Positions 2,454 through 24,166 of a DNA stretch of 32,443 nucleotides are shown piece after piece (position 1 is the first letter of the stretch; every line of letters starts with the position of its first letter). The translations under genes were made by a program, and so were the position numbers. Origin of the DNA: Candidatus Magasanikiibacteriota bacterium (GTDB taxonomy: Bacteria; Patescibacteriota; Patescibacteriia; Magasanikbacterales; UBA922); the NCBI GenBank assembly GCA_016182415.1, contig JACPGR010000028.1, positions 1 to 32,443 on the forward strand, read 5' to 3'. Below the pieces are notes generated by a model. The model was not told where the DNA came from. It searched no databases and saw only the letters and a program-made list of their open reading frames with translations.

Positions 2454-3086
2454 TCAAAAAATATTATTTCTATCCTGTGACCATTTTATCGGATTATTCC
2501 AAATATATTCCCGTATGCGATCCAGTCCAAATTCGTTTCGCGCAATTGAATCATAAAATCGTTCCTGCCATACAAATTTTTGTGAAATATTGTGTTCGAC
2601 AAACATTTTGTTGATTGATTTGGTGACAATCGATTTATATGAACCAACGACGTCACCAACGGTGACAGAAACCGTAGAGACGGGGCAGTGCCCCGTCTCA
2701 TCCTGTGTATGCAAATCAATATTCCAATCTGCCACGGTTATGCGTTTTTTACGCCGTTCCCTGTACCATTCCTGGCATTCCAAACAGGTACCAAACCGCA
2801 ACGCACCACCATGATCAATCCGAATAATCCCATGTATATGATTTGGCATTACCACAAATGCATCTATATACACGTGATGAAAATGTTGTGGAATTTCCTG
2901 CCAGTATTGCCATGCAATCGAACCGGTTTTATACAAACACATCATGCCATGTTTAATTTTACCAAAATAATGTTCTTTATCTTTAGTGCAAATTGTAATA
3001 AAATAATATGCGCTTGCAGAATAATCCCATCCAAACAATCTCGCCGAACGAATTCGATATATATTTTTGAATTTTTTATCAAACAT
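2454..3086 (-). CDS. REP-associated tyrosine transposase (Y1/IS200-like), copy 1
   Basis: This 210-aa protein belongs to the single-strand HUH transposase group related to IS200/IS605 TnpA and RAYTs. The N-terminal FGWDYSASAYYFITICTKD and VVMPNHIHGIIRI (HUH histidines near residues 83 and 85) are typical. The C-terminal ERFYDSIARNEFGLDRIREYIWNNPIKW carries the presumed catalytic Tyr178. Between them lies a variable segment containing DETGHCPVS, encoded by an almost perfect 23-bp palindrome (2677-2699), next to a second small palindrome (2652-2666). Such enzymes usually act on REP-type palindromes scattered in the host genome and are often single-copy genes without flanking IS ends. No IS ends were seen here. 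Related to copy 2 at 23528-24166. Confidence 0.9.
   Translation of the reverse strand: MFDKKFKNIYRIRSARLFGWDYSASAYYFITICTKDKEHYFGKIKHGMMCLYKTGSIAWQYWQEIPQHFHHVYIDAFVVMPNHIHGIIRIDHGGALRFGTCLECQEWYRERRKKRITVADWNIDLHTQDETGHCPVSTVSVTVGDVVGSYKSIVTKSINKMFVEHNISQKFVWQERFYDSIARNEFGLDRIREYIWNNPIKWSQDRNNIF
2677..2699. repeat. REP-like palindrome inside transposase copy 1
   Basis: The half-site GAGACGGGGCA is mirrored with only the central base unpaired. It lies in-frame in the transposase and encodes part of ETGHCPVST. A 6-bp-arm palindrome GTCACC-AAC-GGTGAC (2652-2666) sits next to it. The position in the protein matches the place where copy 2 carries its own palindrome. Confidence 0.7.
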
Positions 3087-9210: not shown

Positions 9211-9334
9211 ATGCAACTCTCCCCTCACCCCTCTCTTACGGAAGAGAGGGGAAACACATAAACCCGTGTCTCCTTTCTCTGTTCGGCTGAGCTCACAGCG
9301 AAGCTTCGGAAGAGAAAGGCGGGGATAGAGTTGC
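9211..9334. repeat. Compound inverted repeat, copy R1 (about 124 bp)
   Basis: The outer arms are GCAACTCTCCCC and GGGGATAGAGTTGC. Inside are two hairpins, one around CCCTCTCTTACGGAAGAGAGGG and one around CCTTTCTCT...AGAGAAAGG, giving a cloverleaf-like fold. Related copies lie at 18567-18697, 19806-19882 (half) and 21301-21457. This copy has an extra insert between the arms of the second hairpin. It begins 2 bp past the DUF1294 stop codon. Confidence 0.8.
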
Positions 9335-9361
9335 TTCACCTAAAGGTGAGTTGCGTGAATC

Positions 9362-9394
9362 AAAAAACCATTCGAAATTCTCGAATGGTTTTTT
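9362..9394. terminator. Bidirectional terminator
   Basis: A perfect 14-bp stem AAAAAACCATTCGA (9362-9375) / TCGAATGGTTTTTT (9381-9394) with loop AATTC. Both strands end in a T run, so it can stop the plus-strand membrane protein unit and the minus-strand hydrolase-like gene. Confidence 0.85.
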
Positions 9395-9431
9395 GATAGG
9401 CTCTAAATCTGATATATCTCAGACCCATAGT

Positions 9432-9487
9432 GTCGAGCCCTCCTTGTTTTTTCTCCTTGGGTTGTTGTGTGCTTTGTAAGGCTCGAC
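9432..9487. repeat. Inverted repeat downstream of the GC-rich hydrolase-like gene
   Basis: GTCGAGCC (9432-9439) is repeated inverted as GGCTCGAC (9480-9487), about 10 bp beyond the stop of the minus-strand gene. The 40-nt loop contains a shorter CCTCCTTG/CCTTGGG repeat. No T tract follows, so it is not a classic terminator, and integron attC core sequences were not found in it. Confidence 0.45.
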
Positions 9488-9497
9488 GGGGTATGGC

Positions 9498-10334
9498 TTA
9501 GCTCAGCCCGAGGATCTGCTTGAGCTTGGCCACGTCTGCATCGTGGGGCTCCAAGGTCTCCGGCTGTACCATGCAGTGAGTCGTCTTCGGCCCCGGAAGA
9601 TGGATGATGACCTTGTCAGGATCTCCACCCACCTCCTCAACCGCCTCACGCAACTTGCCGTAGGGGATAAGCCGATCGTCTCTCGAGACGATGATTCGGA
9701 ATCGATCTCCGAACCAATCGTGGACGAAGTCCAGATCGTCCATGTAGCCACCCCCCAGCAAGAACTGCAGTAGAAGCAAAGACGAATCAGGTGTGAGGAA
9801 TCGTCTCTTGTATATCCTACCTACATGGCACGTCTGAGAATTCGCGAATGCCGTGGTCGCCACCCACGACGAGACGATCGTGCCGAAGAACGGAATGACC
9901 AGCCCGAGTACACAGAGTGGTGTGATCCGCCCTGCACCATTCTTCCAGAACGGTATGTATTTTGCCTGCCCCCACCTCTGAGGGGCCACTGGCCCGAGGG
10001 GACAGACAAACCTAATCCGGTCTCGCTCATTGTCAGTGAGCCTGGCGATGGCCCACATCTGCGAGGGGGTGCCGATGCTATGGCTAGTGCTGATGAAGTC
10101 GTACTGTGGATACTTCTTCATCAACCACTTGATCCATGCAAGGGTCGCCCGTCTGTGCATTCCGAGTGAGACCCACCCGAGCAGACACCGCCAAACCGGC
10201 ATGATGAACATGTTCTGTCCCGGGCGACGCACATCGAATACCTCCACTCCCAGCATCTTTAGGATGGGGAGGAAGAGGTGCGCGAAGCCAAGGACATTAA
10301 TGATCGCGATCTGACGACCATTTTTACTCTCCAT
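9498..10334 (-). CDS. Alpha/beta-hydrolase-like protein of unknown role, GC-rich
   Basis: A 278-aa protein not assigned to a named family. A possible Ser-His-Asp hydrolase core can be traced: a nucleophile-elbow-like STSHSIGTP in the first third, an acidic turn RIIVSRDDRLIPYGKL, and a late GPKTTHCMV histidine. This matches the alpha/beta-hydrolase order but has Ser rather than Gly at the first position of the elbow. Hydrophobic stretches (about 135-165) may be buried or membrane-associated. The gene is visibly richer in G and C than its neighbours and has a clear Shine-Dalgarno AGGAG (10343-10347) 8 nt before the ATG, unlike most host genes here. It shares a palindromic promoter region with the secreted-protein gene on the other side of the IS982 copy. 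Horizontal acquisition is inferred. Confidence 0.6.
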   Translation of the reverse strand: MESKNGRQIAIINVLGFAHLFLPILKMLGVEVFDVRRPGQNMFIMPVWRCLLGWVSLGMHRRATLAWIKWLMKKYPQYDFISTSHSIGTPSQMWAIARLTDNERDRIRFVCPLGPVAPQRWGQAKYIPFWKNGAGRITPLCVLGLVIPFFGTIVSSWVATTAFANSQTCHVGRIYKRRFLTPDSSLLLLQFLLGGGYMDDLDFVHDWFGDRFRIIVSRDDRLIPYGKLREAVEEVGGDPDKVIIHLPGPKTTHCMVQPETLEPHDADVAKLKQILGLS

Positions 10335-10426
10335 TTGTACGTCTCCTTTTGACCCGTCTCCGCAGGTCGGTTAATGAACTTCCTCGCGCCAAAACAAAGC
10401 CCGTCACCTTAACACAATATCCACAG

Positions 10427-10472
10427 ATTTGTCAAGACTAGTGTTGACAAATTAGTCATACTGCTTTAGTGT
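10427..10472. promoter_or_regulatory. Back-to-back promoters over a 26-bp palindrome
   Basis: ATTTGTCAA (10427-10435) and TTGACAAAT (10444-10452) form a perfect 9-bp inverted repeat with an 8-bp centre, and each arm contains a TTGACA -35 box. On the plus strand a TAGTGT -10 (10467-10472) follows at 17 bp. On the minus strand the -10 candidate (TTAAGG, 10407-10412) is weak. The arrangement would let one dimeric regulator control the hydrolase-like gene and the secreted-protein gene together. Confidence 0.5.
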
Positions 10473-10487
10473 GCAATTAACTCAAGC

Positions 10488-10494
10488 CACCAAG
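10488..10494. repeat. Left target-site duplication of the IS982-like element
   Basis: CACCAAG directly before the left terminal repeat is repeated exactly at 11551-11557 after the right terminal repeat. Joining the two flanks gives an unbroken promoter, Shine-Dalgarno and ATG for the gene at 11569. Confidence 0.8.
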
Positions 10495-10540
10495 CTTTGA
10501 ATTACGAAACTCCCCCAAATACCCAAAATCTGCTATACTA

Positions 10541-10566
10541 AAAAAGACACCGCTAGGTGTCTTTTT
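10541..10566 (+). terminator. Hairpin terminator inside the left end of the IS
   Basis: AAAAAGACACC (10541-10551), loop GCTA, GGTGTCTTTTT (10556-10566) form a perfect 11-bp stem ending in T residues. A TATACT hexamer lies at 10534-10539. It would stop readthrough from the plus-strand promoter at 10444 into the transposase. Confidence 0.75.
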
Positions 10567-10592
10567 ATTATCAACTGCCTGTCAAGGAGTGT

Positions 10593-11427
10593 ATGCAATC
10601 TGCTACATTCATCCAAATTCAGACGGTTGTTACAGCGTCAATTTAGTCTGGTCAACAGTAGTGAAACTCCGACCAGTGGTCGACCGAGGAAAATACCTCA
10701 GATTGATGCAATTACTTTTGCATTGTACCAACATACCAGCACCCGCGCAACTAAGAAATCAGTATATCTGGATTTTAAAGATGAGCTCGGTTGTTCATAC
10801 AAAACTTTTGTCGTGTCAGTTAATGCTGCGATGGAAATTTCTGTACGTATCTTGTTTCTTATCATGATGATAAACAAACATCATCAACATCTCATCAAAT
10901 ACACGGATGCAACTGATATTCCGGTATGTCTCAAAAAGAACGCGGATTCACACAAAACTATGGCCGCTTTCGCACAACTCGGGAGGAGTACCAAAGGATG
11001 GTTTTTTGGCTTAAAATTAACGTTTACGAGAGATTCGGAGGGGAGATTATTAGCATTAAAATTTACGAGTGCCAATGCCAACGATCGAGAGATATTTCGA
11101 GAAATTAATCAAGATATTTATGGCATTATCGTGGCTGACGCCGGCTATGTATCCAAACAATTGGAACAAGACATGAATGTAGATAAGAAAAGATGGGTAC
11201 TAATTCGACCATTCAAAACTATGAAAAAGATGATGACACCATAGCAAGAACAACTATACAAAGGACGATTTCAAATTGAATTTGATTTCCGTTCACTTAA
11301 GATGTTTCATGGTCTTATTACCTCATTACCACGATCCGTCAATGGCTATCTTGCAAACTATATTCATGCCATTACCTCATTTGTTTTAGGACAAATCATC
11401 TGCAGAACACAAATTCAATCTGCATAA
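10593..11427 (+). pseudogene. IS982-type DDE transposase, broken
   Basis: A Shine-Dalgarno GGAG precedes ATG 10593 (MQSATFIQIQTV...), but that frame stops at 10644. The conserved protein continues in another frame from about 10627 (GRPRKIPQIDAITFALYQ, then the DDE core). The first Asp lies in TDATDIPVC, followed by STKGWFFGLKLTF, and the second in IIVADAGYVS. The frame meets TAG at 11242-11244 and resumes as LYKGRFQIEFDFRSLKMF, carrying the catalytic Glu, to TAA at 11425-11427. One frameshift plus one nonsense codon make an active enzyme unlikely, though programmed frameshifting or readthrough cannot be excluded. Combined length, about 280 aa, is normal for the family. Confidence 0.85.
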
Positions 11428-11568
11428 GCATATACACAAACACGGAGTTTCACATATGTAACAATACGTTTCATACACAAAACCTCACTGACGTGAGGTA
11501 TCTTTGGTTTGGGTTGAAAAAAGTGAGTTAATGAATTTCGTAATTCAAAGCACCAAGGAGGTGGAATC

Positions 11569-11949
11569 ATGAGAAGGGCATTCACGCCCATCGTGGTCCT
11601 CGTGACGCTGGCACTGTTCGCCAGCACCGCGTGGGCCGAGTCCCCCGTCCAGACCCGCGCCGGGTCGAAAACGGGCGTCAACCACAACTCGGACACCAAG
11701 ACCCCAGCGGTCAAGGTGTCCACCAACAAGTTCGCCGGCAAGATGGCCATCGCGAACATCCTGTCGTCGAATACGAGTGGCTTCACGAACAAGATCGCCA
11801 TCGCCATTCCGGCGAAGTCGACCAAGTTCGTCATGGGCCACGGCTCGGGCGGGATGGGCTTCAAGGGCACGGGCACCACCGGCGAGGTCCACAAGACCAA
11901 GCCGAAGGCGCGCCCGACGCGACGCTGCCCCACGCCACTCCGGGAGTAG
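11569..11949 (+). CDS. Small secreted protein, GC-rich
   Basis: A 126-aa protein with a clear Sec signal peptide: MRRAFTPIVVLVTLALFASTAWA, cleavage likely after AWA near residue 23. The mature part is Thr/Lys/Ala/Gly-rich and low in aromatic residues (KTGVNHNSDTKTPAVKVSTNK, GHGSGGMGFKGTGTTGEVHK), with a basic Pro-rich tail. No family is recognised. The Shine-Dalgarno AAGGAGGTGG is 4-5 nt from the ATG and among the strongest in the window. GC content and codon use clearly differ from the flanks, suggesting transfer. An IS982 copy ends 18 bp upstream and separates the gene from the promoter at 10444, so expression may be reduced. Two GC-rich hairpins follow the stop (about 11975-12016). Confidence 0.65.
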   Translation: MRRAFTPIVVLVTLALFASTAWAESPVQTRAGSKTGVNHNSDTKTPAVKVSTNKFAGKMAIANILSSNTSGFTNKIAIAIPAKSTKFVMGHGSGGMGFKGTGTTGEVHKTKPKARPTRRCPTPLRE

Positions 11950-11974
11950 ACGTCACTCTGACGCCTAGCTCCCA

Positions 11975-12016
11975 CGCGTCCTTCGGACGCGCCTCATTCG
12001 ACCTTCGGGTCGGGTG
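11975..12016. repeat. Two tandem UUCG hairpins
   Basis: GCGTCC-TTCG-GGACGC-like and CGACC-TTCG-GGTCG hairpins follow the secreted-protein gene. They are GC-rich like that gene and lack a T tract. They may protect the 3' end of the mRNA. Confidence 0.5.
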
Positions 12017-12056
12017 TGGCGCTCCAGAGGACGCGCACACATCACTTTTTTACAAA

Positions 12057-12090
12057 AAAATAATGCTTTTCCAAGCATTATTTTATTTTT
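12057..12090. terminator. Bidirectional terminator
   Basis: AAAATAATGCTT (12057-12068), loop TTCC, AAGCATTATTTT (12073-12084), then ATTTTT. It separates the plus-strand GC-rich gene from the convergent methyltransferase fragment. Confidence 0.85.
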
Positions 12091-12099
12091 AGTACATTC

Positions 12100-12618
12100 C
12101 TATTTCTTCCTCGCCCAAACGTATATTGTATCTTTATACCTGCGAGATTTTTTATTTTCTTTTGTTACGATAGTCCGCACATCAAAATCCACAAAACCAT
12201 TTCTACTCAATTCCTCAACAATAATTTTTTCATCCACAGGCGTTGCCGAAATCTTTTTTTCCCCAGAACGATAAAACATTGCGTTTTTGAGAGAACAAAG
12301 ATAAATGAATTTTTCCGAATCAACTAAATTGGAAATATTTTTGATATATTTTTTGTATTGACTAAGACTGTTGGTAATTGACTCCGGACAAAACGGTACA
12401 AACACAATATCGGGACGCATGTTTTTCACATTATCCGGATTTGGATCGACCGCAAGTGGGTTTTCTTGTCCCACGTCTATCTCAACTGGCTCAGTAGATT
12501 TTATCGACACCGTTTCTTCAACAGAAAAAAATCCGTACCTCGCACCAGTATGCTGTTCAAACAGATAATATACAAAATCAGAAAATTCTTCATAGTATTT
12601 TGTTTTTCGGGTTAACAC
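12100..12618 (-). pseudogene. NNMT/NAS-like methyltransferase, 3' fragment
   Basis: This 172-codon frame (GTG at 12618 is merely the first possible start) is the C-terminal part of a methyltransferase whose N-terminal part is at 12769-13596. It starts VLTRKTKYYEEFSDFVYYLFEQHTG, matching the helix that follows motif I in NNMT-type enzymes. It then has RPDIVFVPFCPESITNSLSQYKKYIKNI, a motif IV-like region, and ends KFIYLCSLKNAMFYRSGEKKISATPVDEKIIVEELSRNGFVDFDVRTI...YVWARKK, which resembles the closing strands of NNMT/PNMT/TEMT proteins. A 127-bp MITE separates the two parts. Without it the frame is continuous and 453 codons long. Independent translation of this piece would lack the SAM site. Confidence 0.75.
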
Positions 12619-12637
12619 ATTATTTTTACAACCCGTA

Positions 12638-12645
12638 AATTGTTT
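12638..12645. repeat. Left target-site duplication of MITE-1
   Basis: AATTGTTT at 12638-12645 is repeated exactly at 12773-12780 on the other side of the element. The pair marks the insertion point in the methyltransferase gene. Confidence 0.85.
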
Positions 12646-12772
12646 GTAACTACTCAGCCCCTCAAATTACTTGGCTAATATAAGCAAAATTTAAGTATTC
12701 AATGGCTTCGTATAAAACAATATAATCTGCTTAAATAAGCCAAAATACTTGTCAAGGGTGGTGAGTAGTTAC
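12646..12772. mobile_element. MITE-1, 127-bp non-autonomous element
   Basis: The termini are GTAACTACTCA and TGAGTAGTTAC. The inverted homology continues imperfectly for about 40 bp on each side (TTGGCTAATATAAGCA against TGCTTAAATAAGCCAA). There is no coding capacity. It is flanked by exact 8-bp duplications AATTGTTT. The same GTAACTACTCACC terminus occurs on the larger compound repeat at 19806, and a related one on the copy at 21301-21457, suggesting a shared mobilising transposase that is not in this window. Confidence 0.85.
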
Positions 12773-13596
12773 AATTGTTTCATGATTTCATTGTTTCGCT
12801 CATCATAATCAGCTGGAACAATAGTCTTTATTTCTGGAATCATCGACCACACAAATGCTTCATACGGAATTGGTCCATTACCAACAATGAGAACGGTACT
12901 ATTTTTTGGTAAATATGCACGTTTTGCACAGAGAGTTTCGTAGTAATTTATTGTTACAGTAAGATCTTCTGTACTAATAGCCGAATAATAATAATTTGTA
13001 TATTCCACGGGATTAAAATCCTTGAATCTACCAAGCTCAGATACTGTGTTACGCAATGCCTCGCGTATTCCAATATCATGAGGTAAATATGGTTTTTCTG
13101 TACCGGTCCCGATTAAATAGTATAATTCAAGCGTTGGTGGAACTTTTCCAGGCGGTAAATTTTTTAGTTCCTCATAAATCTGCATCAAATCCACAGGTGA
13201 GACCGATCGATAAATTGAACGGATCCAATGCCCCACATCAAAGCGGACTTCCAGATATGCATACGCCCATCGCAAAAATGCACTGGATAAGGGATAGCCC
13301 TGATTAACAATATAATCAATAATTTCAAGTGGATGTGTGGGAATAAAATGAAAAAGGCTCCGCCCTCTTCGGTACGGATCCTTATTTTGAAATGCATTTA
13401 CCACAATACTACGAATAAAATTTGCTTGTGTTTTGTTGAAAATTGGTGATACAAATTTTGTGTCAATATATACTTCCCGTAGACTATTTCCAGAAAATTC
13501 TTCTTGAAAGGCATTAAGAAGATATTCATAATATGCTTCAACCTCAGTAGAAGAAATCAAATCCACACGACAAAAAGTTGCTTTGTTTTCGACCAT
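12769..13596 (-). pseudogene. NNMT/NAS-like methyltransferase, 5' fragment
   Basis: The N-terminal 275 codons of the same gene as 12100-12618. Residues 200-235 (FNPVEYTNYYYSAISTEDLTVTINYYETLC) resemble the region before the SAM site in NNMT-type enzymes. STVLIVGNGPIPYEAF is motif I with the GxGP loop shared with nicotianamine-synthase-like enzymes, and TIVPADYDERNNEIMKQ is the acidic motif II. The frame stops right where MITE-1 begins. The start lies 10 bp after the ychF stop, so the gene was probably co-transcribed with ychF. The N-terminal 190 residues are of unknown fold. The substrate of the intact enzyme cannot be named. The fragment keeps the SAM site but loses the rest of the catalytic fold. 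Confidence 0.75.
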
Positions 13597-19805: not shown

Positions 19806-19882
19806 GTAACTACTCACCCCGCTTTACTCGTGAACGCAACTCACCCCTCGCCCCTCTCTTGATAGAGAGGGGAAACACGTGA
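19806..19882. repeat. Compound repeat, half copy R3
   Basis: It starts with GTAACTACTCACCCC, the MITE-1-like terminus, followed by GCTTTACTCGTGAACGCAACTC and the first hairpin CCCTCTCTTGATAGAGAGGG, then breaks off. The right half is absent, so this copy is truncated. Confidence 0.75.
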
Positions 19883-19963
19883 GTCTTCAAAGTACTTATT
19901 TTTTCAACCCAACATTTTAATATCCAAATCAGTGTAATCAAAAATAATCAGCGAAATCAATGT

Positions 19964-19979
19964 TGTTTCACGTAAAACA
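19964..19979 (+). promoter_or_regulatory. parS-like site 2
   Basis: TGTTTCACGTAAAACA matches the parS consensus TGTTTCACGTGAAACA at 15 of 16 positions, the best of the three. It abuts the terminator hairpin at 19978-20010. Confidence 0.7.
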
Positions 19980-20010
19980 AAAACGCCTACAAACATGTAG
20001 GACGTTTTTG
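19978..20010 (-). terminator. Terminator after the tRNA-Arg region
   Basis: AAAACGCCTACA and TGTAGGACGTTTT form an imperfect stem with A/T runs on both sides. On the minus strand it would end a transcript running from the TrmB gene through the two tRNA-Arg-like genes. Confidence 0.5.
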
Positions 20011-20070
20011 TATAAATTTGTATAGATTATTGTATACAAACGACGTTTATTGAAAACGTTTACAGATTAT

Positions 20071-20100
20071 TATGTAGGGGGCATGCCTGCCCCCTACATA
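20071..20100. repeat. REP-like palindrome P5
   Basis: TATGTAGGGGGC and GCCCCCTACATA are mirrored around ATGCCT. It is the same type as the palindromes inside transposase copy 2, but with three bases lost from the left centre. Confidence 0.75.
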
Positions 20101-20149
20101 TATCATAATCATTCAGATACCTAGAATCAAACACCAAAAAAAATCTACA

Positions 20150-20246
20150 GTAGCCCCAGCACGAATCGAACGCACATCTCTCCCTTAGGACGGGACTGTT
20201 CTATCCATTGTCAGCCAAAGGCTGATCAGCCTTTGGCTAAAACTAC
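20150..20246 (-). pseudogene. tRNA-Arg(CCU)-like gene broken by a 26-bp palindrome
   Basis: On the minus strand the sequence contains AATGGATAGAACAG, anticodon arm GTCCC-GTCCTAA-GGGAG (anticodon CCT) and T arm GTGCG-TTCGATT-CGTGC, nearly identical to the intact copy next to it. The 3' strand GGGGCTAC can pair (with G-T pairs) with GTAGTTTT, which lies upstream of a perfect 26-bp palindrome (20213-20238). The palindrome thus sits between the acceptor and D arms. The D stem no longer pairs, and no CCA is encoded. I therefore call it a pseudogene, though processing of such an insert has not been tested. Confidence 0.55.
20213..20238. repeat. 26-bp perfect palindrome in a tRNA-Arg copy
   Basis: The half-site AGCCAAAGGCTGA is exactly mirrored. 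It is absent at the same place in the neighbouring tRNA-Arg copy, so it is best read as an insertion. Confidence 0.85.
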
Positions 20247-20254
20247 TCCAATTG

Positions 20255-20326
20255 TGCCCTCAGTACGAATCGAACGTACATTTTATCCTTAGGACGGATC
20301 TATTCTATCCATTGAATTATGAAGGC
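20255..20326 (-). tRNA. tRNA-Arg (anticodon CCU)
   Basis: On the minus strand the acceptor GCCTTCA pairs with TGAGGGC over seven bases (one G-T). The D arm is ATTC-AATGGATA-GAAT, the anticodon arm ATCC-GTCCTAA-GGAT gives anticodon CCT (fifth stem pair is a mismatch), and the T arm is GTACG-TTCGATT-CGTAC. The discriminator is A and no CCA is encoded. At 72 nt it is complete. It lies between the TrmB gene and a near-duplicate broken copy. Confidence 0.85.
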
Positions 20327-20335
20327 GTTATTCAA

Positions 20336-20351
20336 TGTTCTATGTGAAACA
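20336..20351 (-). promoter_or_regulatory. parS-like site 3
   Basis: Read on the minus strand, TGTTTCACATAGAACA matches the parS consensus at 13 of 16 positions. It lies just past the stop of the TrmB gene. On its own it would be weak; it is listed because of the two better sites nearby. Confidence 0.45.
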
Positions 20352-20354
20352 ATC

Positions 20355-21104
20355 TTACGCTATATCCAAAGTTTTATCAAGACCCACAGTATCCCACAGC
20401 ATATCAAACATCGCTTTAAATATATCATACATTGCGGGAATCTGAATCACGATCGCAAGTGAGCTCAGTTCAGGACTAACCACCAAAATTTGATCTTCAA
20501 ATATATCAATGGTGCTTCGAAATTGATATTGCGAAGGTACATACCGAAAATCCCGAAGCAATTTTTCTTCTACCGGATTAATCTCACGCGAATCCTCTGT
20601 GAGAAGCAATTTTGTCTTGATATTATTTCTACCTCGATCATATCGAAACTGCCGAAACCATTCCATATCGAGATCTTCCCAACCTTGGGCGCTCCCGATA
20701 ATACAATATTGTTTGTCTCGATATTCATCGAGCACCCCTGTATAAAACTGCTTAAGTTCATCAAGCGTCTCAATAAATCGTAAACCGGACATTTGAACAT
20801 CTTTTTTTTCAAGAGATTCAAGCAACGGGATCATGGCATAAAACGAATCAAGTTTTTTGCCAAACAATGAAGCGACCCGTTGTGGTTTTTGGGCATAATA
20901 ATAGCGTCGATTTTTTCGAAAATAGACTGTGACAAAACCACTATCCGCGAGCTTTTTTAAGATTGGGTATACAGTCGTACGCTTGATCCCCATAGATTTG
21001 GCAAGCTTACTCGCCTGAGTTCCTCCCAATTTCAACAGTTCAAGATATATTAGAGCTTCTTGATCTGATAATCCAAGATTTTTTAATGTTGATACGTTAT
21101 TCAT
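20355..21104 (-). CDS. TrmB family transcriptional regulator 1
   Basis: A 249-aa regulator of the TrmB type. The N-terminal winged helix is clear: LKNLGLSDQEALIYLELLKLGGTQASKLAKSMGIKRTTVYPILKKLADSGFVTVYFRKNRRYYYAQ (residues 7-72). A coiled linker follows, then a C-terminal effector-like domain (YCIIGSAQGWEDLDMEWFRQFRYDRGRNNIKTKLLLTED, then IDIFEDQILVVSP) as in TrmB-like proteins of archaea and Patescibacteria. It is transcribed away from the methyltransferase-desulfurase fusion gene, about 370 bp apart, making that gene a natural candidate target. The effector is unknown. Confidence 0.85.
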   Translation of the reverse strand: MNNVSTLKNLGLSDQEALIYLELLKLGGTQASKLAKSMGIKRTTVYPILKKLADSGFVTVYFRKNRRYYYAQKPQRVASLFGKKLDSFYAMIPLLESLEKKDVQMSGLRFIETLDELKQFYTGVLDEYRDKQYCIIGSAQGWEDLDMEWFRQFRYDRGRNNIKTKLLLTEDSREINPVEEKLLRDFRYVPSQYQFRSTIDIFEDQILVVSPELSSLAIVIQIPAMYDIFKAMFDMLWDTVGLDKTLDIA

Positions 21105-21246
21105 ATATTATTAATAGTTTATAGGGCGTAGCCCACAGGCGAAGACCTATCCACATTTTTTGTGTCAAAATTTTACGACAATTTATAAATATATGTATAT
21201 TATATGTTATGTTAGGTAAATTGTAAATGGTTGGTGTTGATAATTG

Positions 21247-21275
21247 TTGACTATTAAATACATTTGACCTAGACT
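21247..21275 (+). promoter_or_regulatory. Candidate promoter of the fusion gene
   Basis: TTGACT (21247-21252), a 17-bp spacer and TAGACT (21270-21275). The compound repeat R4 lies between this promoter and the gene at 21474, so the repeat would form most of the 5' leader. Confidence 0.45.
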
Positions 21276-21300
21276 GTATGGTTATTCATTAATATATCTT

Positions 21301-21457
21301 GTAGCCACCCATTTTATTTTATTTGTGAACGCAACTCTATCCCCGCCTTTCTCTTACCGAAGAGAAAGGAGACACAAAGTCGGGTGTTTCCCCTCTCTTC
21401 GGTAAGAGAGGGGCGAGGGGAGAGTTGCATTCACAAAACGCAAAGCTGAGTAGCTAC
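21301..21457. mobile_element. Compound repeat R4, full-length MITE-like copy (157 bp)
   Basis: The outer ends are GTAGCCACCCA and TGAGTAGCTAC. Inside come TTGTGAACGCAACTCT and AGAGTTGCATTCACAA, then the two inner hairpins (CCTTTCTCTTACCGAAGAGAAAGG shortened; CCCTCTCTTCGGTAAGAGAGGG). The flanks ATATATCTT (21292-21300) and AGATATCTT (21458-21466) agree at 8 of 9 positions and look like a target duplication. It ends 16 bp before the fusion gene start. Confidence 0.75.
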
Positions 21458-21473
21458 AGATATCTTTATTTAT

Positions 21474-23477
21474 ATGAACACCACAAATGTAAACCCAGAC
21501 AATCTAAACTACAATTCATACACAGGCGAGAAATATGATATGGACATCTTTCGTGTCATTCCGTATTATCAAGAACTCAACGATATAATTTCTGAATTTG
21601 TTAACACAAAATTTGAAAAGGGTAGACAATATCATATTTTAGATCTTGGGGCAGGAACGGGACTTACGAGCAAACTACTGCGAGATTTACTCCCACAAAC
21701 AAAATTGGATATTGTAGATTTTTCTGCACCCATGCTAGAGTCTGCCCGAATGAGACTTAGTGAAAATCAGGTGAATTACATTTGCACTGATTATTCAGAA
21801 ATGGAATTTGAACCAAACAAATACGACATCATTGTGTCCGTTATTGGATTACACCATCAAAACCATAAAGGAAAGAAAAAAGTTTTACAAAAAATTTATC
21901 ACAGCCTAAAGCCCGGCGGATGGTTTATTTTAGGAGACTTGGTTACTCACGCAGACAAAACCGAGTCATCACTAAATGATGCAAAACACTTTCATCACAT
22001 GGTAGAACATGCCACAGATGAAAAAACTCTAGCAGAATGGGCATATCACCATACATATCTCAATGATCTAGCTCCAAAAGAAGATTTGACACAATGGATT
22101 CAAGATTTAGGATTTGAATCAAAAATCTTACTTCAAAAAATAAACACACTTTTGCTTATAGCGAGAAAACCAACCGAGATACACACAGAAAACTACGCTG
22201 ATTTGTTTTCATCAGGTATTCAAAACTTTCCGATACAAACTAACAAACTTGGCGAAACATCATACATAAATTTTGATAATGCTGCGACCACACCACCGTT
22301 TCTCGTAGTTGAACAAGCAGTAAAAGAATTTATGAATCAATATGGTTCTGTACATCGTGGCGCTGGAATAAAATCTCAATTGTCTACTGACTGGTATGAA
22401 GAAAGTAGAAAAATAATAAAAGAATTTGTACATGCACCACAGGATGCATACGTCATTTTTTCAAACAACACAACAGGTGGCATCAATATGCTCTCTCATT
22501 TTTTTTCTTTTCTACCCGGAAAAATAGCTGTATCCTCAATAGAACACAGCTCTTCGTGGCTACCATGGATCAAAGCTGAAGGCATAAAACAACTCGGCAT
22601 ACATCGTTTTGAACATGAAAAAAATAATAACACTTCACAAGACATCCAAACACACGGTAAAAAATATGTACTCCTGTATGATGTGGACAAAAATCTCGAA
22701 TTTGATTTATTGGATATTGAACATATTCTGTCGGAACACAAGATTAAGGCTCTCGTAGTTACTGCATCTTCAAATGTAACCGGTTATTGCCCAGATTTAC
22801 GTTCCATCGGAAATCTCTGTAAAAAATACAACACATACTTTATAGTTGACGCATGCCAATACATACAACACAAAAAAATTAACATGTCCGAATTGGGTAT
22901 TGATTTCTTGGTAGCATCCGGACATAAATTTTATGCGCCGTATGGATCCGGTTTTGTTATTGGACCAAAAGATTTTTTTAACAATTTTTTGCCATACCAA
23001 ATTGGGGGTGGAAATATTGAATATATCGATGAATCCGGAACTTTTTACTATGGGAAGACCAATCTGTTACATGATCCGGGAACCCCCAACGCCGTAGGAG
23101 CCATAGCGATGTCAACCGCATTACAAAAATTGACAGAATTAGGTTTGAAAAATATTCATACACATGAATATAAAATTACCAAAAAAATATTTGATTATTT
23201 GAAAACTAATCCACAAGTAACTGTATATACAAAAGAAGAACACCTAAATAGTATTATAACATTCAACATCAAAGATTTGTCAGCTAACGAAACGGCAAAA
23301 ATATTAAATGATGACTATGGTATAGGTGTACGGGCAGGAAGTTTTTGTGTGTATCAGGTGATAAGAAAACTAACAGGTACAAAAGAAGGTGTGGTACGAG
23401 TTTCTGTAAGCCTTTGTAACACTGTTGAACACGCGGACAGATTTATTCAAGCTATTCAAGAAATTACTAAGGACTAA
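21474..23477 (+). CDS. Fusion of a SAM-dependent methyltransferase and a SufS-like cysteine desulfurase/class V aminotransferase
   Basis: A 667-aa cytoplasmic protein with two enzyme domains. Residues 1-230 are a class I methyltransferase: ILDLGAGTGLTSKLL (55-69) is motif I, DIVDFSAPMLESA motif II, YDIIVSVIGLHH motif IV and LKPGGWFILGD motif V. Residues 262-667 are a class V aminotransferase fold: INFDNAATTPP (265-275), SSIEHSSSWLPW (H358), FIVDACQY (D459), the PLP lysine in ASGHKFYAPYGSG (K485), DPGTPN, and the loop VRAGSFCVY with Cys625 where SufS/CsdA carry the persulfide cysteine; VRVSVSLCNTVEHADRF closes the family pattern. Both active sites look complete. The fusion suggests coupling of sulfur (or selenium/amine) transfer with methylation, but the product cannot be named. 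TrmB regulator 1 is divergent upstream. Confidence 0.85.
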   Translation: MNTTNVNPDNLNYNSYTGEKYDMDIFRVIPYYQELNDIISEFVNTKFEKGRQYHILDLGAGTGLTSKLLRDLLPQTKLDIVDFSAPMLESARMRLSENQVNYICTDYSEMEFEPNKYDIIVSVIGLHHQNHKGKKKVLQKIYHSLKPGGWFILGDLVTHADKTESSLNDAKHFHHMVEHATDEKTLAEWAYHHTYLNDLAPKEDLTQWIQDLGFESKILLQKINTLLLIARKPTEIHTENYADLFSSGIQNFPIQTNKLGETSYINFDNAATTPPFLVVEQAVKEFMNQYGSVHRGAGIKSQLSTDWYEESRKIIKEFVHAPQDAYVIFSNNTTGGINMLSHFFSFLPGKIAVSSIEHSSSWLPWIKAEGIKQLGIHRFEHEKNNNTSQDIQTHGKKYVLLYDVDKNLEFDLLDIEHILSEHKIKALVVTASSNVTGYCPDLRSIGNLCKKYNTYFIVDACQYIQHKKINMSELGIDFLVASGHKFYAPYGSGFVIGPKDFFNNFLPYQIGGGNIEYIDESGTFYYGKTNLLHDPGTPNAVGAIAMSTALQKLTELGLKNIHTHEYKITKKIFDYLKTNPQVTVYTKEEHLNSIITFNIKDLSANETAKILNDDYGIGVRAGSFCVYQVIRKLTGTKEGVVRVSVSLCNTVEHADRFIQAIQEITKD

Positions 23478-23527: not shown

Positions 23528-24166
23528 TTATTTTCTATAATTTGTATCCACCACCCAATTCGTTGGATTATTTTTGATATAGGCACGAATACGATGCAAT
23601 GACATTTCATCACGAATAATGGAATCGTAATAGGATCGTTGCCAACCAAATTGCGTCGTTCGTATCCGTGATATTGGTAGGGGACAGGCATGCCTGTCCC
23701 CTACGGTGGAATATTTCAAATCCATTTGATTTACATCTGATAATCTATGTATCAATTTCGTCACCGCCGATTTGTATGAACCGATGACGACGGGTAATAA
23801 TTCATGGGGACGTGTGATAGATATAGGTTTATTGTTTTGCATTGATGATTGTAGGGGGCAGGCATGCCTGCCCCCTACAATCACGTCGCAATTTTGGTTA
23901 TAATTATTTTCAATCACCACAATCCCATGTACATGATTTGGCATTATTACAAATTCATCCAATGTAATATTTTCAAAATGTTTTGGAATTTCATTCCAAC
24001 AATCAAACGCAATTTTTCCCATTTCATTTAATATTATTTCATCATATACTACATTTCCAAAAAATAATTCTCGATCCTGTGTGCAAATTGTCACAAAATA
24101 ATAACCCATTGAATTATAATCAAAATTAATCATTCTATTTTGTCTTCTGTTTTTCATATTTATCAA
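23528..24166 (-). CDS. REP-associated tyrosine transposase (Y1/IS200-like), copy 2
   Basis: A 212-aa HUH transposase of the RAYT type. YNSMGYYFVTICTQDRELFFG and EFVIMPNHVHGIVVI (HUH histidines 78 and 80) open it. GSYKSAVTKLIH and WQRSYYDSIIRDEMSLHRIRAYIKNNPTNW (catalytic Tyr near 180) close it. The variable region holds two copies of an RHACPL peptide (GGRHACPLQ at 98-106, GDRHACPLP at 156-164), each encoded by a perfect palindrome of at least 28 bp (23847-23882 and 23677-23704). Similar palindromes occur outside the gene at 20071-20100 and 24370-24399. The family normally processes such palindromes as single strands, so the gene appears to carry its own target-like sequence. The HUH and Tyr motifs are intact, so activity is plausible. 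Confidence 0.9.
   Translation of the reverse strand: MINMKNRRQNRMINFDYNSMGYYFVTICTQDRELFFGNVVYDEIILNEMGKIAFDCWNEIPKHFENITLDEFVIMPNHVHGIVVIENNYNQNCDVIVGGRHACPLQSSMQNNKPISITRPHELLPVVIGSYKSAVTKLIHRLSDVNQMDLKYSTVGDRHACPLPISRIRTTQFGWQRSYYDSIIRDEMSLHRIRAYIKNNPTNWVVDTNYRK
23677..23704. repeat. REP-like palindrome P2 inside transposase copy 2
   Basis: The half-site GTAGGGGACAGGCA is exactly mirrored (28 bp). On the minus strand it encodes VGDRHACPLP within the transposase. Confidence 0.9.
23847..23882. repeat. REP-like palindrome P3 inside transposase copy 2
   Basis: The half-site GATTGTAGGGGGCAGGCA is exactly mirrored (36 bp). It encodes VGGRHACPLQ within the transposase. P2 and P3 differ by compensating changes in both arms. 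Confidence 0.9.

Follow-up and report, generated by a model that had tools for sequence, protein, structure and literature searches.

Does a minus-strand locus that reads as two short frames hold two genes, or one gene that was broken? Automatic annotation would give two unrelated small genes at 12100-13596 of the window (the whole 32,443-nt stretch of DNA analyzed here, from a Candidatus Magasanikiibacteriota bacterium). We consider it highly probable that, instead, a MITE with ISBst12-type ends, moved in trans by an IS66-type transposase, split and inactivated a methyltransferase gene at this place. The genome searched for this purpose is that of the window itself, a draft of 1.11 Mb in 99 contigs that is 92% complete, and the features on which the argument is built are as follows:

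12646..12772, no strand assigned: MITE with ISBst12/IS66-type ends; 7 complete copies genome-wide (0-2 differences)
12646..12661, plus strand: left terminal inverted repeat, first 11 bp perfect, imperfect beyond
12757..12772, minus strand: right terminal inverted repeat
12638..12645 and 12773..12780, no strand assigned: two copies of the target-site duplication AATTGTTT, exact over 8 bp
12769..13596, minus strand: N-terminal part of the putative broken methyltransferase, 275 codons; PF01234 positions 13-95, E 5.7e-4
12100..12637, minus strand: C-terminal part of the same putative methyltransferase; PF01234 positions 140-261, E 3.9e-10

A Multicopy Miniature Element with an Exact Target-Site Duplication

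The element between the two frames is exactly 127 bp long, with GTAACTACTCA at one end (12646-12656) and TGAGTAGTTAC at the other (12762-12772). Its inverted-repeat arms are 89% complementary over 18 nt, and it is non-coding, with stops in all six frames. The reading made beforehand from the sequence only had described it as a 127-bp MITE with an exact 8-bp target duplication, and we could confirm both points: the ends fall where this sequence-only reading had placed them, AATTGTTT is present on both flanks, and the short non-coding sequence with its terminal inverted repeats recurs in several near-identical copies that have target duplications of their own.

As a matter of fact, seven complete copies of the element (with 0-2 differences from the copy at 12646-12772), two divergent ones and several fragments are found in the genome, so that this small bacterial genome has no fewer than nine copies that are complete or almost so; four of the seven complete copies have an identical sequence. 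All but one of these seven are flanked by an exact 8-bp duplication of their own, and the six duplications are mutually different (AATTGTTT, AAAGAAAT, TAAACTTT, AACGTTTA, AGATCAGA, and AATAATTC); the copy on contig C16 has no 8-bp duplication. Because mismatched left and right flanks, paired across copies as a control for chance duplications, never match (0 of 42 pairs), the exact repeats at six of seven complete copies are more than chance would give.

The ends themselves are more widespread than the 127-bp element. The terminal 11-mer GTAACTACTCA occurs at 67 exact sites in the genome, against 3 for the reversed control pattern, and 11-mers of this type are often the ends of other short elements, which measure 47, 78, 83, 88, about 146-161, 182, 196, and 205 bp and many of which are flanked by exact 8-bp duplications as well. 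The 127-bp element was not found in the 143 other genomes searched, which are those of relatives.

Elsewhere in the window, a second pair of the same ends (GTAACTACTCA / TGAGTAGCTAC) encloses 1.65 kb at 19806-21457, including a TrmB-like regulator gene and a tRNA-Arg(CCT); this pair has no matching 8-bp flanks and perhaps represents the ends of two separate elements. Two genes for Y1 transposases of the IS200-like/REP-associated type (PF01797) lie at 2454-3086 and 23528-24166, the second just under the cutoff. In the region 9300-12060, the GC content rises to 0.52-0.57 in two stretches (around 9300-10500 and around 11400-12000), compared with about 0.35-0.40 in the vicinity; between them lies a DDE transposase frame (10627-11244), which by eye looks IS982-like. 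No Pfam match was obtained for frames 9498-10334 and 11569-11949, and the region is possibly acquired DNA or a chimeric joint.

A Single 453-Codon Frame Interrupted by Three Stops

When the element and one duplication are removed, a single frame of 453 codons is obtained. Since the element plus one duplication amounts to 135 bp, or 45 codons, the reading frame is kept across the insert, and what interrupts it is the element's own sequence, which places in-frame stops at three positions, codons 276, 302, and 310; the first of these arises where the duplication meets the terminal repeat (TTG-TAA). The proposal that two frames can be joined into one hence stands as to its outcome, with the small correction that both parts are already in the same frame. 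No further stop or frameshift is present within the 453 codons. The C-terminal part is listed as a 172-codon GTG frame (12100-12618), and the N-terminal part comprises about 190 residues of unknown domain, followed by SAM-binding motif I (VLIVGNGP) and motif II (PADYD).

Another copy of the element (L005 707-833, contig C53), with the duplication AGATCAGA, provides a positive control for this removal on paper. There, the element splits a KilA-N domain gene, and its joined flanks give 277 codons. These match an intact 279-residue orthologue from a relative belonging to the same family, with 57% identity across residues 5-275 and an alignment that spans the junction. Taking out the element and one duplication therefore recovers a real gene in this genome.

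Both Halves Match the NNMT/PNMT/TEMT Family

Judging from profile and structure matches, the product of the joined frame is predicted to be a methyltransferase of the NNMT/PNMT/TEMT family. With regard to the curated cutoff of PF01234 (NNMT_PNMT_TEMT), set at 25 bits, the N-terminal half alone remains under it, the C-terminal half alone exceeds it (39.8 bits), and the joined frame reaches 56.9 bits, matching positions 13-261 in one stretch with an E value of 2.4e-15. Likewise, the C-terminal half matches PNMT in the PDB (E 5e-7), the E value for NNMT among solved structures moves from 4e-3 before joining to 3e-6 for the joined frame, and NNMT structures align across the junction (191-423) only when the joined frame is used. 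The assignment of the halves to different families, which had been named as the result that would overturn a single split NNMT-like gene, was looked for; both halves match PF01234, on which they are collinear, in agreement with the original claim. The accompanying suggestion of a NAS-like character has to be abandoned, as no nicotianamine synthase match was obtained in Pfam (E<=1) or among solved structures (E<=10). A GntF-type N-methyltransferase (NF041360) was also considered and rejected, with 26.9 bits for a cutoff of 60, this match reflecting the shared methyltransferase fold only.

Within the joined frame, the last 260 residues cover nearly the whole PF01234 profile, including both motif I and motif II as well as the C-terminal region, but the frame differs from the enzymes of this family by about 190 extra N-terminal residues, and the animal NNMT/PNMT/TEMT enzymes are distant from it. 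As the sequence-only reading had anticipated, this long N-terminal part is without a known family: no significant match to residues 1-190 turned up in Pfam, in NCBIfam, or among solved structures, and single-sequence structure prediction of the N-terminal part gave a pLDDT of only 39. Elsewhere in the window, a 667-residue protein (21474-23477) combines a SAM methyltransferase domain with a class-V aminotransferase/desulfurase-like domain.

Searches for orthologues covered a wide range of genomes. Across about 460 genomes of the phylum, no orthologue of this methyltransferase, which has a 190-residue N-terminal extension, could be detected. The N-terminal part on its own lacked an orthologue in 95 relatives and in 380 phylum genomes, as well as in the species genome collection (a coarser scan than the searches of the phylum genomes), viral contigs, and plasmids, and for the C-terminal part none was retrieved from the species genome collection or from phages. 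The joined frame had no orthologue in 86 genomes of the order, where the only match, in one relative, was weak (E 0.007) and contained three stops, at a locus where no gene is similar to the N-terminal part. This lack of an uninterrupted orthologue would suit a pair of separate genes, one for a small SAM-binding-like protein and one for a methyltransferase C-terminal protein, between which the element came to lie by chance. We nevertheless regard such a coincidence as very unlikely, given that the two parts share their frame, are separated by an element with an exact duplication, and are collinear on one Pfam family with the joined E value reported above, and that both intact PF01234 members detected in other genomes of the phylum are encoded by one gene each, 265-281 residues in length and lacking the extended N-terminal part.

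Consequences of the Insertion for the Gene

The methyltransferase gene with the element in it is almost certainly inactive, because the stops end translation just after motif II and thereby split the SAM-binding fold. Residual function would have to come either from read-through of the stops, giving a protein with a 45-residue insert, or from two fragments that assemble. The preserved frame and a possible GTG start of the C-terminal part at 12618 would allow for this, but with three stops in the element's frame, motif II parted from the remaining Rossmann fold, and no site resembling a promoter immediately ahead of the C-terminal part on the minus strand, a still-functional gene appears highly improbable.

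The sequence of events that we propose for the inactivated gene is that a non-autonomous miniature element with ends of the ISBst12 group of IS66, moved by an IS66-type transposase in trans, would have inserted into AATTGTTT inside the NNMT/PNMT/TEMT-family methyltransferase gene, and that repair of the staggered cut would have generated the 8-bp duplication. The 45-codon insert would keep the frame, its three stops would terminate translation just past motif II, and the first half of the SAM-binding fold would be cut off from the rest, with loss of function of the gene.

As had been suggested, this insertion is probably recent, given the identity of four of the seven complete copies, an intact duplication, and 453 codons otherwise free of damage. 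The least credible explanation, a misplacement of repeat-element reads into the window contig, could draw on the draft state of the assembly (99 contigs) and on the several element copies that sit close to contig ends, but a misassembly would not yield an exact target duplication at the joint together with in-frame flanks, and the element, being about one short read long, should be easily spanned.

A Likely IS66 Partner

The sole IS66-family transposase gene of the genome (PF03050, E 7.7e-36) lies between the same ends as the MITE, in a 1,414-bp element at C64:49059-50472, whose left end agrees with the right end of the MITE at all but 3 of 24 bp. The MITE thus has its ends in common with a transposase-coding element of the same genome, and its 8-bp target duplication is likewise what derivation from IS66/ISBst12 predicts. 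Since ends and duplication length match, the 127-bp element may well be moved by a transposase of the ISBst12 type. With its frameshift, its TGA stop, and no duplication around it, the C64 copy looks dead; as the only copy found is decayed, an active source would therefore be missing from the 92% complete assembly. The intact IS66 transposases of two relatives are without these ends.

ISDge4, an active IS66-family element (ISBst12 group), has a single transposase gene, ends GTGACTACTCAGCA/GTAACTGCTCAGCA, and an 8-bp duplication (PMC12898284). Its terminal sequence is nearly identical to that of the element described here (GTAACTGCTCAGCA vs. GTAACTACTCAGCC), and both have an 8-bp target duplication and are inserted into a gene, but ISDge4 encodes its own transposase whereas the present element is non-coding and only 127 bp long (PMC12898284). 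In this respect, the element resembles MITEPsy1 of Pseudomonas syringae (PMC3189936) and MITECca01 of Cardinium (PMC9769881), which are also short, non-coding, and multicopy and share their ends with an insertion sequence of the same genome. MITEPsy1 interrupts genes too, but it derives from ISPsy2, with other ends and a 4-bp duplication (PMC3189936), and MITECca01 derives from ISCca4, again with other ends (PMC9769881).

Our literature search retrieved no report of such a pairing of a MITE family and a transposase in this bacterial group. We lean slightly toward the broader view that, in a single small Patescibacteria-like genome, an IS66/ISBst12-type element spawned a whole set of recently moved, gene-inactivating miniature elements with sizes between 47 and about 205 bp, a mobilome expansion that is undescribed for the group. 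The ISBst12 link supplies a testable partner transposase for this MITE family. Taken by itself, the locus is an ordinary if clear instance of a gene inactivated by a miniature transposon, and as such a clean example of how a miniature transposon can cause gene loss in a streamlined genome.
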